Shown: piece by piece, positions 47,507 to 51,037 of the stretch
Layout: each line of letters begins with the position of its first letter
Numbering within the stretch: position 1 is the first letter of the stretch
NCBI GenBank assembly: GCA_020859995.1
Contig: JAJBVE010000125.1
Location: 1 to 51,037, forward strand
DNA length: 51,037 bases
From: Clostridiales bacterium
Lineage (GTDB): Bacteria > Bacillota > Clostridia > Lachnospirales > Lachnospiraceae
Direction: 5' to 3'
Program-made: the position numbers and the translations under genes
Notes under the pieces: model-generated
The model's input: the letters and a program-made list of their open reading frames with translations, nothing else
What the model was told of the DNA's origin: nothing
Database searches by the model: none

Positions 47507-47983
47507 ATGCCCGATATAGAAAAGGAAAAGAAACAACAGCAGGAAGAATATCAGAAGTACGTAAAAGAGGTTACTCCGACCCACAGCCTCGCATTAAATA
47601 TGTGCAAGGCATTTGTCACCGGAGGGGCGATCTGTGTGATCGGACAGCTGCTTCTGAATTTTGGTTCCTCTTTTTTCGATTTTGATAAAGAAACAGCGGG
47701 AAGCTGGTGTTCCCTTATGCTGGTTCTAATAAGCGTCATTCTGACTGGCTTTGGAATTTATCCCAGACTCGCTAAATTCGGAGGCGCCGGTACACTCGTG
47801 CCGATTACCGGATTCGCCAATTCCGTGGCATCACCGGCGATAGAATACAAAAAGGAAGGCCAGGTCTTCGGCATCGGCTGTAAAATTTTCACCATCGCCG
47901 GCCCGGTAATATTGTACGGGCTGTTTACCAGCTGGGTGCTGGGTTTGATTTACTGGGTGCTGAAGATGGTTGGGGTGATGTGA
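47507..47983 (+). CDS. spoVAC: Stage V sporulation protein AC
   Basis: A 158-residue membrane protein. YQKYVKEVTP, NMCKAFVTGGAICVIGQ, GFGIYPRLAKFGGAGTLVPITGFANSVASPAIEYKKEG in pieces and the final hydrophobic helix match SpoVAC, a channel component that moves Ca-dipicolinate into and out of the spore. Four or five membrane segments are visible. spoVAD and spoVAE, normally next in the operon, are not found here; the next genes belong to the defence-like island. Its last 114 common bases (47858-47971) recur at 50760-50873. GAGGAGG precedes the ATG. Confidence 0.94.
   Translation: MPDIEKEKKQQQEEYQKYVKEVTPTHSLALNMCKAFVTGGAICVIGQLLLNFGSSFFDFDKETAGSWCSLMLVLISVILTGFGIYPRLAKFGGAGTLVPITGFANSVASPAIEYKKEGQVFGIGCKIFTIAGPVILYGLFTSWVLGLIYWVLKMVGVM
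47858..47971 (+). repeat. Direct repeat, copy 1 (3' end of spoVAC)
   Basis: A 114-base segment inside spoVAC is matched at 50760-50873 with nine differences, all silent. The two copies bracket the ATPase/HNH island. Confidence 0.92.
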
Positions 47984-48312
47984 ACAGAGATAGTTTCCTT
48001 TTTTATTCCAAAGGAGCACCACCCGGAACGATGTGTTGATACCAAGAGGTTCCAATGCCCCATATGTCTGTATTGGGTTTGGGGCGGAAACGTTCGTTCT
48101 TTTGATGCAATATGGCGGAGACAATTAATAATGAGGCAGATATGATGCAGAATGGAGGACGTACCCTTGCGGGTAAGATCTTCCATTTTGATATTTTGCT
48201 TGTTGATAGCGGCTTTATGTGCTAAACTGCTTTCATAGGTTTCACCATATTTTTGGACAGATGAAAAATGGAAGGATTTATCTGTAGCTAAAGAGAATTG
48301 AGGTGGCAAGTT
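47984..48312. other. Structured non-coding leader of the defence-like island
   Basis: No convincing gene is present in these 329 bases. Three consecutive hairpins can be drawn: GGAAC/GTTCC (48025-48029 with 48049-48053), GCCCCA/TGGGGC (48057-48062 with 48080-48085), and a long one at 48151-48187. It could be the remains of sequence downstream of the original spoVAC, a transcription attenuator or a small RNA. Confidence 0.5.
48151..48187. other. Long hairpin upstream of the PtuA-like gene
   Basis: AATGGAGGA (48151-48159) pairs with TCTTCCATT (48179-48187), then an internal loop, then TACCC (48162-48166) with GGGTA (48171-48175) and a TTGC loop. The flanking T-rich sequence is broken, so termination is only one option. 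Confidence 0.5.
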
Positions 48313-49629
48313 GTGAAGTTGAAGAATGTAAATATCACGAATTATAGATGTTTTAAAGAGACGGAGATAGATTTTGATGATCACATAACATTGATTGTAG
48401 GCAAAAATGGAGCTGGAAAAACAGCTATTTTGGATGCAGTAGCAGTTTCAATCAGTACATTTTTGCTTGGAATCGATGGCGGAGTGAGCAGAAGTATATT
48501 AAAAGAGGATGCCAGATATGAATTTTATGATTTGAACGGAACAGTTGATCCCCAGCATCAGTTTCCGGTAAGTATTGAGAGCATGGGAGATTGTTGCGGT
48601 AAACGTGATATAAAATGGTTGCGTTCTTTAAATTCGGCAAACAGTAAGACTACTATTAAAGATGCAGGTGAATTAACAGGGATTGCCAGATGTGTTCAAA
48701 ATCAGATTATGACCGGAGATAAGACACTGGTTCTTCCGCTTCTCTCTTATTATGGTACAGGACGGTTATATGCACAGAAGAAAGAAAAACGGAACATGAA
48801 GTCCTTGACGGAATTTAAACGTCAGGTCGGTTATGTTGATTGTATGGCTGCAGAATCGAACGAAAAATTAATGTTGAACTGGTTTCAGAAACAGACGATG
48901 AAGAGTCTGCAAAACCAGCAGAAAACTGGCGCTTTAGAAACACCATTGCTTTTAAAGACAGTAGAAAAAGCGATATGTAAAAGCTACGAAAAAATCAGTG
49001 GGGCAAGTAATACATCGATCATTTTTGACCTGGATACACATAGACTGGTTCTGGAGTTTCAATCATCAAATGGCAGCGGCCAAAAGTTTTCGATGGATGA
49101 AATGAGCGATGGCTACAAAAACACCTTAAGTATGATAGGTGATATTGCATACCGCATGGCAGTTTTGAATCCCACTTTGGGAGAACGGGTACTGGAAGAG
49201 ACACCAGGGATTGTATTGATTGATGAAGTGGATCTTCATTTACATCCACAGTGGCAGCAGACGATTCTGAAAGATTTGCATGAAGTATTTCCGAATATTC
49301 AGTTTATTGTAACTTCACATGCCCCAGCGGTTATCAATTCAGTTCCAAGAGAGAAGATTCGAATTTTGGACAAAGGGGATATTTATATGCCGGCAGCAGA
49401 AACTTATGGACGCGATGCGAATTCTATTTTAAGAGAGGTCATGAAAGTATCGGAAAGACCGGAAGATATCAAAAGAAAACTGGATATATTTTATGTTTGC
49501 ATGGATGAAAAAAACTATGAAGAAGCAGATGAGGTATTGACATCGATAGAGAATCTTGTTGGAACAACAGATCCTGATATTGCAGCGGCGAGGACGTCCC
49601 TGGAATTGGAAAAATTATTGGGAGAATAG
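48313..49629 (+). CDS. AAA family ATPase, Septu PtuA-like
   Basis: The 438-residue protein is an ABC/SMC-type ATPase of the AAA_15/AAA_21 kind used in Septu and related defence systems. It starts with KLKNVNITNYRCFKETEI, has Walker A GKNGAGKT (residues 30-37), a signature-like M-S-D-G-Y-K-N near 264, Walker B IVLIDEVDLHLHPQWQQ near 303, and the switch histidine in FIVTSHAPAV. The C-terminal 100 residues are helical. GTG at 48313 with AGGTGG six bases upstream is the best start. It is visibly AT-richer than the housekeeping genes. An HNH gene follows after three bases, the PtuA-PtuB arrangement. Retron-linked ATPases are close relatives, but no reverse transcriptase is present. Confidence 0.85.
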   Translation: MKLKNVNITNYRCFKETEIDFDDHITLIVGKNGAGKTAILDAVAVSISTFLLGIDGGVSRSILKEDARYEFYDLNGTVDPQHQFPVSIESMGDCCGKRDIKWLRSLNSANSKTTIKDAGELTGIARCVQNQIMTGDKTLVLPLLSYYGTGRLYAQKKEKRNMKSLTEFKRQVGYVDCMAAESNEKLMLNWFQKQTMKSLQNQQKTGALETPLLLKTVEKAICKSYEKISGASNTSIIFDLDTHRLVLEFQSSNGSGQKFSMDEMSDGYKNTLSMIGDIAYRMAVLNPTLGERVLEETPGIVLIDEVDLHLHPQWQQTILKDLHEVFPNIQFIVTSHAPAVINSVPREKIRILDKGDIYMPAAETYGRDANSILREVMKVSERPEDIKRKLDIFYVCMDEKNYEEADEVLTSIENLVGTTDPDIAAARTSLELEKLLGE

Positions 49630-49632
49630 TCT

Positions 49633-50307
49633 ATGATTGTAGTAAAAAGAGGAAAAGAACCAAACAGTCTGCTGGAATTTCGCAAGCAAAATCCTGAGGC
49701 GGATTATGAAGATACTCCATCTAATGTATTATATGATATCAGAGAGCAGATGTGGAGAGAACAGGGTCATTTGTGTGGGTATTGTATGAAACGGATTAGC
49801 AGCCCAGATGTCGAAAGAATTGAGCATTGCATTCCAAGACATCCCAAGGGAGAAATGGTTCATGATAAGCAGGCAACATTGAATTATAAATGGATGCTTG
49901 GCGTCTGTTATGGTAACAGCATGAAGCGTGGAGCAAAGCCAGAGGAAATGACTTGCGATGCCCATAGACGTAATACGGAACTGACTATTAATCCTTTTGA
50001 TGAGACATCAATCAGAAAGATTAAGTATAAAGCAGATGGAAGGATTTATTCGGAGGATCCGGAGATTAACAAAGATGCGACTGAAACCTTAAATCTTAAT
50101 TGTGAAGCAGTATCATTACCCCAGACACGGAAAAATGTGCTGACGGAAGCAAAAAAAAGAATTGCAAAAAAGTGTGAAGGGAAAACACAGGATGCATATA
50201 TGCAGGAGTTGAGACGTACATATGTAAGCCTGGCACATGAACGGAATTTGATACCATACTGTGGAATTATTATTTCCTGGTTAGAGAATAAACTGAAAAT
50301 TTTATAG
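49633..50307 (+). CDS. HNH endonuclease, Septu PtuB-like (TIGR02646 type)
   Basis: A 224-residue nuclease. It shows a zinc-type pair C-G-Y-C (Cys48, Cys51), VERIEHCIPRHPKGE with the HNH His at 65, LNYKWMLGVCYGNS (Asn84), and TCDAHRRN (Cys108, His111), an HNH arrangement typical of the TIGR02646 family found with PtuA-like ATPases and some retrons. In known Septu systems PtuA and PtuB form a complex that cuts phage DNA when the ATPase senses infection; that is carried over by family, not shown here. It starts three bases after the ATPase stop and shares its low GC content. Confidence 0.85.
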   Translation: MIVVKRGKEPNSLLEFRKQNPEADYEDTPSNVLYDIREQMWREQGHLCGYCMKRISSPDVERIEHCIPRHPKGEMVHDKQATLNYKWMLGVCYGNSMKRGAKPEEMTCDAHRRNTELTINPFDETSIRKIKYKADGRIYSEDPEINKDATETLNLNCEAVSLPQTRKNVLTEAKKRIAKKCEGKTQDAYMQELRRTYVSLAHERNLIPYCGIIISWLENKLKIL

Positions 50308-50700
50308 GAGGGGTTCGACCGGAACTTAAGAGATATACTCGCAAGCTACATATTCTATATAAGTGATGCTTTCCAGTCATTGGAAAAAGTGAACATTGAG
50401 AGCCGAGAAACGAATGAAGGAAGCCAAAAAACGAATATTGAGAATGAAAAAGTGAACATTGATGAGGGGCTTGAAACAGAAAAAGTGAACATTGAAGACC
50501 GATTCACATCAAAAACGGCAGCCCATGTTCGGAAGCTGTTGGCTGCATTTGGTTCGACTACTGTATTCGGCAGGTCAGAGGTTCAGCAGGTGCTTGGATT
50601 GAAAGCGACAAGAAGCTCCGCTCTGCTCAGCGAGATGCAGAAGCAAGGAATTATAGAGCCAGTGGCAGGACAGGGAAAGGGCAAGTATCGTTTCCTTTAG
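50308..50700 (+). pseudogene. C-terminal remnant of an AlbA_2- or Fic-type protein with winged-helix tail
   Basis: The frame is open from immediately after the HNH stop (same phase) to 50700. A TTG at 50380 could start a 106-residue product, but no good ribosome site is seen. The sequence has K-V-N-I-E repeats and then TAAHVRKLLAAFGSTTVFGRSEVQQVL with TRSSALLSEMQKQGIIEPVAGQGKGKYRF, a winged helix typical of the C-terminal ends of AlbA_2/RecG-like ATP-binding or Fic proteins. The upstream catalytic domain is missing. It is therefore likely a truncated neighbour brought in with the island, though a small DNA-binding protein remains possible. Confidence 0.6.
50383..50495 (+). repeat. Short in-frame repeats encoding K-V-N-I-E
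   Basis: GAAAAAGTGAACATTGA occurs three times (50383-50399, 50446-50462, 50479-50495), all in phase, with a diverged fourth copy at about 50425-50441. They form the linker before the winged helix. Confidence 0.8.
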
Positions 50701-50759
50701 TCTTTTGTCTATTATAAGAATTGCTACACTTTTTTGTCCCTAATAGAACGCCTGCAGAG

Positions 50760-50885
50760 GGCCAGGTCTTCGGCATCGGCTGTAAAATTTTTACCATTGC
50801 AGGGCCGGTGATATTGTACGGCCTGTTCACCAGCTGGGTGCTGGGGCTGATTTACTGGGTGCTGAAGATGGTTTTGAGGGCGTAA
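50760..50885 (+). pseudogene. Displaced 3' end of a second spoVAC
   Basis: Bases 50760-50873 match the spoVAC end at 47858-47971 with nine substitutions, all silent, and the frame runs on to its own stop (50883-50885) with the ending M-V-L-R-A instead of M-V-G-V-M. No start or upstream part of the gene is present. It marks the right edge of the defence-like island. Confidence 0.9.
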
Positions 50886-50964: not shown

Positions 50965-51037
50965 GCGCGCATTTTCATTTTGTCAGCGCTAAAGAATAAA
51001 AACTTTTCGCAATAAAAATACTTGTATTTTCCCACAA

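Follow-up and report, generated by a model that had tools for sequence, protein, structure and literature searches.

How did a pair of Septu-type defence genes come to lie between two copies of the end of a sporulation gene? The question is raised by contig JAJBVE010000125.1 of a member of the Lachnospiraceae (GCA_020859995.1, here G000; 4,401,041 bases in 239 contigs). The window analysed is this whole contig (G000:C207), 51,037 nucleotides (nt) long. A first-pass annotation had described an intact spoVAC, then an AT-richer block with the Septu-like pair, closed by a second copy of the spoVAC tail; it proposed an element inserted at the 3' end of the gene, with the old tail displaced, and spoVAC as a hotspot for defence genes. 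We read the block as a recombinase-less cassette, resembling those of the staphylococcal cassette chromosome (SCC), that would use a serine-recombinase site within spoVAC. To the view that such cassettes are inserted site-specifically at spoVAC by a serine recombinase acting in trans we assign a probability of about 0.7.

The spoVAC gene (47507..47983, plus strand) is intact and matches TIGR02838 with 170.7 bits (cut-off 164) as well as PF03862. The G+C content of the block behind it is 40.1% (positions 48000–50700), compared with 48.0% for spoVAC and 49.9% for positions 1–47000. The repeat, previously put at 114 bases, measures 117 nt: the left copy, fused to spoVAC (47855..47971), and the displaced copy (50757..50873), both on the plus strand, are identical at 107 of 117 positions. 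The next best ungapped 117-mer match within the window reaches 53/117, and a search of the G000 genome at E ≤ 0.001 gave no third copy. The two copies become alike abruptly at the GA of codon 117 (GAA), located at 47855..47856 (plus strand) on the left and at 50757–50758 on the right; upstream of it only 5 of 40 bases agree. This dinucleotide is the probable crossover point. We read the end of spoVAC from 47855 onwards as a tail brought by the cassette, and the copy at 50757..50873 as the original end of the gene.

The 117-nt tail is present in 34 of the 47 genomes of the genus, and in at least two copies in five of them: G000, G001 (three copies), G021, G063 and G065. Six displaced tails were recovered by tblastn, all beginning at SpoVAC residue 117. 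The element end is kept in G031, with the tail down to a short stub, and 26 bases of a displaced tail remain in G010 (24/26 alike, counted by eye). The cargo changes from genome to genome. Septu genes stand at spoVAC in G000, in G027 and in the second unit of G001, where a DUF4062 protein follows; an Spx-like gene with a Fic gene of type PDC-S72 occupies the first unit of G001 and the site in G010; Fic genes of type PDC-S04 are found in G065, G031 and G063; and G021 carries an AAA ATPase with a partner of 216 amino acids that has no family match. Close relatives have single-tail sites with native sequence behind spoVAC. In G015 and G013 spoVAC is followed by the transfer-messenger RNA (tmRNA) gene; the downstream sequence of G014 is 94–96% like theirs, and ARAGORN gave no complete gene in it; in G064 a long open reading frame follows spoVAC. 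In three further genomes the occupant, an AI-2E transporter (G008, G061) or a cellulase (G033), has no displaced tail associated with it. The same holds for a GGDEF protein behind the Fic unit, scanned in G065 and with a relative in G031.

Matches to the Septu proteins at E ≤ 1e-60 were obtained in 9 of the 47 genomes. They lie at spoVAC in G000, G027 and G001 and elsewhere in G065, G061 and G031, so this cargo also occurs outside spoVAC; three further matches are distant (34–40% identity) and their positions were not located. In G065, G061 and G031 the Septu relatives, with about 90% protein identity, share another chromosomal place, and their ptuB is shortened or partly deleted (L241, L242, L243).

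The insertions extend past the genus. The tail peptide was searched against 397 genomes of the family and matched in 248; among the matches listed, displaced tails occur in G181, G244 and G343, of three other genera, and G474 was added from 11 genomes of the genus of G181. The tblastn matches beyond the genus start at residues 115–117, and by eye the junctions fall at GA. In total, displaced tails occupy 15 junctions in 10 genomes of four genera, by eye all at the same core GA of codon 117: G000, G001 (two), G021, G063, G065 and G031 (the stub) within the genus, then G181 (two), G474 (three), G244 (two) and G343. At eight of the 15 (G000, the first unit of G001, G021, G065, both of G181 and both of G244) a single contig carries both spoVAC and the displaced tail. 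The layout in G244 is the same, with TTTTGTCCCTAATCTAACACTCTCG before GAAGG. Cargo outside the genus comprises a zeta toxin and an AlbA_2 protein in G181; AlbA_2, a YobI-like ATPase and Fic in G474, together with an 18.7-kb stretch containing a relaxase and a Tn916-type integrase; and in G244 an MTRK-like kinase with an AraC regulator, as well as a 40-kb, mostly metabolic-looking stretch that ends in a type I specificity subunit.

What lies immediately left of the displaced tails is conserved too. In most of the genus this stretch reads TTTTTTGTCCCTAATRGAACSCYNGCA, and in the window it forms a right element end of 28 base pairs (bp) at 50729..50756 on the plus strand, a probable recombinase half-site to judge from its sequence. 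At 12 of the 15 junctions (the three of G474, found later, were left out) the 28 bp left of GA have a mean identity of 63.3% between different cargos, and the next three 28-bp windows outward have 29.1, 28.1 and 28.6%. The alignment score of the ends is 8.87, against a shuffle mean of -5.14 (standard deviation 0.49). The genus motif plus the first five bases of the tail, with up to three mismatches, occurs at 6 places in 5 of the 47 genomes, all of them junctions; the right end of G065 is a diverged form missed by this pattern. A second form of the motif occurs at 3 places in 2 of the 397 family genomes, again all junctions, and controls gave 0 hits for either form. A pattern scan of GTDB r220 returned 27 stretches, of which 5 are spoVAC junctions, all in metagenome-assembled genomes titled Lachnospiraceae; the other 22 have no spoVAC match worth counting.

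A link to a recombinase comes from G343. Here the row spoIIAA, sigF, spoVAC stops in the middle of spoVAC, which covers positions 1–105 of the 141 of the SpoVAC profile. A second contig carries, in order, recombinase genes, a right end, GA, the displaced spoVAC tail, a cation ATPase gene and spoVAD. The recombinase genes encode three large serine recombinases with Resolvase, Recombinase and zinc-ribbon domains: the first is complete, another is truncated where the contig ends and the third is split between two frames; the last recombinase stop is about 100 bp from the core. Joined together, the two ends of G343 form, by eye, an imperfect palindrome around GA, as at the sites of large serine recombinases. 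In G466, a congener of G343, spoVAC is unbroken and is followed by the same kind of ATPase gene, making it a single-tail site. The first-pass annotation had seen no integrase: this stands for the window, where profile searches of the island's three proteins gave neither transposase nor integrase, and fails for the site. A fixed boundary, one core and a conserved end, as expected of a serine-recombinase element, are found across the 15 junctions. The right ends of the cassettes also resemble those of recombinase-bearing elements, best in G181, whose first junction scores 7, 11, 14 and 14 against four such elements (2000 window controls: 99th percentile 3–4, maxima 10, 8, 11 and 7); the likeness of the two G244 ends is partial (8, 8, 2, -1 and 8, 4, 6, 3).

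In the mechanism that we favour, the attachment site would lie inside spoVAC with the GA of codon 117 as its core, and a cassette would consist of a spare spoVAC tail (GA to stop), a leader with a terminator, the cargo and the 28-bp right end. On insertion at GA the tail of the cassette would join the body of spoVAC, the gene would stay whole and the old tail would be pushed to the right; a circle carrying right end, GA and tail in succession and recombining at the resident GA would give the observed layout. Repeated insertion would build arrays. The recombinase would most likely be of the large serine type and come from elsewhere; in G343 an autonomous element of this type uses the same core and breaks the gene. 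Alternatively, a cassette circle might recombine with the hybrid left site of such an element and thereby repair the spore gene, and either route may be supplemented by homologous recombination via the tails.

A comparison of G027 with G001 suggests that a unit starting with the tail was transferred recently. The spoVAC bodies of these two genomes are identical at 253 of 339 positions (74.6%), the tails at 120/123 and the Septu cassettes at 99.5% of 2227 bases, and the break in identity lies at GA. In G027 the Septu cassette directly follows spoVAC. In G001 one contig ends with an array in which the tail and leader take second place, and a different contig opens with the Septu genes, from which we infer that the array crosses the contig gap; the last bases of the first contig depart from the leader, and something may have inserted there. 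The cassettes may still be mobile.

The cargo of the window's unit matches the Septu type I system in gene order and in both protein families, and the proteins themselves are unremarkable; what is new compared with known Septu type I is the setting in a spoVAC cassette. The gene ptuA (48313..49629, plus strand, GTG start) encodes the AAA ATPase and matches PADLOC model PDLC00298 (PtuA1) with 572.7 bits over residues 1–437 of 438. After 3 nt follows ptuB (49633..50307, plus strand), encoding the HNH nuclease, which matches PDLC00322 (PtuB1) with 232.4 bits over residues 1–222 of 224. The Septu-like assignment of the first-pass annotation is thereby upheld. The closest solved relative of PtuA is the PtuA 8ee4 (E 3.6e-63); PtuB shows only a weak likeness to a solved chain (E 0.00019). 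Both genes are full length, and their ratio of non-synonymous to synonymous substitution rates against G027 is 0.098 for each, which indicates evolution under constraint; in G001, ptuB has an early stop. The window's pair probably acts against phage. A retron of type I-A (Ec78) was considered and rejected: its ATPase model scores 278.2 bits against 572.7 for PtuA1, and Ec78 scores 262.8 bits against a cut-off of 500. Apart from ptuA and ptuB, no open reading frame between spoVAC and the second tail exceeds 144 amino acids, leaving no room for a reverse transcriptase; the non-coding RNA of a retron was not searched for.

A third open reading frame, absent from the first-pass annotation, lies in the block at 50380..50700 (plus strand). 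It is a remnant comprising the C-terminal 106 codons, about a quarter, of a Fic gene (PADLOC PDC-S72, 82.8 bits, profile positions 273–373 of 377); the Fic assignment comes from Pfam in a full-length relative, and full-length PDC-S72 relatives reach 652.5 bits in G001 and 652.1 bits in G010. In blastn comparisons of G000 with G027, G001b, G001 and G010, homology to the Septu cassette ends and homology to the Fic cassette begins at 50357..50362 (plus strand), a switch that fits a deletion between two neighbouring cassettes. Judged by these alignments, the window's unit is a chimera of the two: it would have fused with the neighbouring Fic cassette by deletion and kept the right end of the latter.

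Could general recombination account for the whole pattern? Under this explanation DNA bracketed by tails would simply recombine with the resident tail, and the 28-bp end would be an inherited edge. About 117 nt of homology do bracket each full cassette, the tails are 76–98% alike across the genus panel, the fusion in the window's unit demonstrates that the site undergoes deletion or general recombination, and the Enterococcus cassette chromosome (ECC), a comparable element, is also moved by homologous recombination according to the excerpted text of PMC6222049. Yet every breakpoint falls on one and the same base, right where the homology borders on unrelated sequence; next to unrelated cargo in different genera the 28 bp stay conserved, whereas the outer flank is at background; and G343 has a recombinase-bearing element at that same base. 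We therefore consider homologous recombination as the sole agent unlikely. Far less probable still is one ancient insertion at spoVAC, inherited vertically, with cargo swapped by ordinary recombination. Such descent would conserve the right end, and it agrees with the chimeric unit of the window and with a neighbourhood that is itself rearranged, the tmRNA gene being inverted in G065, G031 and G008 relative to G015 and G061. It does not explain why G015 has a single tail although its spoVAC body is 85.5% identical to that of G065 and the same genes lie further downstream, why single-tail G466 stands beside G343, why each unit of the arrays in G181 and G474 has its own tail and end, or how a 99.5% identical cassette came to be shared by species whose spoVAC bodies are 74.6% identical.

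The direct repeats flanking the block also recall an ordinary transposon with a target-site duplication around unrelated defence genes. Here, however, the repeat, 117 nt long with 91% identity, extends from codon 117 almost to the end of the gene and recurs across genera, and no transposase match was found among the three island proteins searched; this explanation is scarcely tenable.

Several observations weigh against cassettes moved by a serine recombinase. The case for such movement is built from sequence, and the window's unit contains no recombinase; recombinase genes are found at the same site in G343. The right end is a hybrid half-site, but the left boundary of the cassettes resembles the intact chromosomal site rather than the hybrid half-site of a standard serine integrase; G343 alone has a hybrid left end. 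Movement would therefore call for a permissive recombinase or a different route, and standard serine integrases are not known to pair such sites. In the part of PMC5595907 consulted, Ccr-type recombinases are described as accepting non-canonical pairs, which is thought to allow SCC fusion. At seven of the 15 junctions (the second of G001, G063, G031, G343 and the three of G474) the link to spoVAC is drawn across a contig gap, and the genome of G031 has no good spoVAC match. G027 and G010 carry cargo without the full right end. The right end varies, since the search with the second motif form missed G343 and one G181 junction, and its likeness to the ends of recombinase-bearing elements is partial in the window (scores 5, -3, 7 and 3) and poor in G065 (-2, 1, 3 and 0), in a comparison where the cores of the elements at other genes were placed by eye. 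Two exact-pattern scans of IMG/VR turned up neither a phage nor a plasmid as carrier. Defence genes are not the only content of the site, which also has non-defence occupants and metabolic genes.

The first-pass annotation fares well on the remaining points. Its element at the 3' end of the gene, with a displaced old tail, is supported by the single-tail sites, the varied cargo at one base and the conserved end. It had expected a hotspot to show empty sites and different defence cargo at one position, and both are found, the former in G014, G015, G013 and G064, and in G466 as against G343. Relatives without the island have one tail each, and the ATPase and HNH genes are too patchily distributed to be core genes of the site. 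The hotspot itself is supported, and for four genera; its description as one for defence genes applies to part of the cargo only.

The components of this picture are already known: Septu, serine-recombinase elements, and cassettes in the 3' region of a gene. Like the units described here, SCC and ECC place variable cargo in the 3' region of a conserved gene, rlmH, and they use large serine recombinases at sites of dyad symmetry, to which we liken the spoVAC system (PMC6222049, from the portion available). The differences are that the gene is spoVAC and not rlmH, that the units are mostly much smaller and that the window's unit lacks ccr genes; two G343 recombinases match the CcrB model far below its cut-off, with 68.4 and 49.3 bits against 900. 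The window's unit has neither the rlmH site nor the ccr genes that mark SCC and ECC. The elements skin, SP-beta and gin in gerE insert inside a sporulation gene by means of serine recombinases, and G343 fits this group; for gin, the consulted part of PMC5595907 mentions three serine recombinases and restriction–modification genes. Unlike these, the window's cassette leaves its gene uninterrupted because it brings its own tail. Small cassettes gathered in arrays at one site are also typical of integrons; here, however, the site lies in protein-coding sequence and the recombinases linked to it are serine recombinases.

Among the open-access papers listed, going by titles and the opening lines of abstracts, none deals with spoVAC as an integration site. 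In the passages seen, spoVAC is mentioned as island cargo (PMC6907783), and recombinase targets are reported not to be enriched near defence genes (PMC10083194). As far as this literature shows, the codon-117 site, the recombinase-less cassettes with a gene end of their own, the range of four genera and the link to an autonomous gene-breaking element are new.

If this reading is right, gut Lachnospiraceae trade immunity genes, much as SCC does, at one defined position within a core sporulation gene, and a defence hotspot is tied to sporulation. The 28-bp end signature can be searched for in other assemblies, the uncharacterised partners in the cassettes offer a handle on new defence genes, and the movement of recombinase-less cassettes becomes open to direct testing. 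More tentatively, and with some doubt, codon 117 might be a docking site across the whole family, with immunity and toxin-type genes travelling as recombinase-less satellites of large-serine-recombinase elements; the autonomous element would break the spore gene, the spare end of the satellite would repair it, and spore formation would select for uptake.

Related recombinases (E ≤ 1e-40) occur in 24 of the 47 genomes of the genus. None of the seven clusters that were fetched lies at spoVAC or on a contig with a spoVAC tail match, and we do not claim a cluster of the window's genome as the mobiliser of its cassette. Two clusters of that genome run, by eye, into other genes: for C234 the gene is AbrB/SpoVT-like, for C56 it is Uma2-like. 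The former (L220) has three large serine recombinase genes and its right end inside the AbrB/SpoVT-like gene, which may be a further regulatory or spore gene interrupted in this genome. Clusters in G000, G014 and G027 (L222, L223, L224) end, by eye, in a Uma2-like gene and have similar right ends; on this sequence pattern the gene appears to be another shared target. In G474, two cassettes (L261, 6624–7295 and 2239–2925) start after the tail with a recombinase fragment, which has Recombinase and zinc-ribbon parts and no catalytic-domain match and may be a remnant or a regulator.

Some candidate insertions were discarded. The second tail of G250 is an assembly artefact, two contigs overlapping by 127 nt, and G472 and G473 were dropped likewise (overlap of 55 nt). 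G155 has a frameshifted spoVAC and no insertion, the second match of G475 (48.8% identical, residues 104–144) is not a tail beginning at 117, and partial tail pieces of G181 (residues 129–150 and 135–157) were left out of the count. The exact overlaps in the metagenome-assembled genomes G250, G473 and G472 (127, 55 and 55 nt; L199/L190, L264/L263 and L266/L265) all fall inside the spoVAC tail, and these contig breaks could reflect strain variation at the site.

The leader, which is common to units with different cargo, contains a hairpin with a T-rich stretch at 48148..48190 (plus strand; -23.3 kcal/mol, z -5.69, equalled by none of 200 shuffles), a probable terminator of spoVAC. Folding missed it in two of three stretches (L062, L064), and the window result alone was used. 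A promoter scan gave 10 sites against 7.8 expected and was not used as evidence. The ends of L069 (G001:C58) and L074 (G063:C18) leave the hairpin into a similar sequence, GTTACAGGTCACACCC..., perhaps a multicopy element inserting there. A repeated sequence closes the window, whose contig ends 164 bases past the second tail in sequence repeated at other G000 contig ends. These 164 bases have 17 matches in G000, self included, and the last 54 (50984–51037) recur in many other contigs, often at their ends; they probably form the terminus of an insertion sequence present in many copies. Downstream of spoVAC, the tmRNA gene lies on the opposite strand in G065, G008 and G031 and on the same strand in G061, G015 and G013: a small gene is inverted beside the insertion site.

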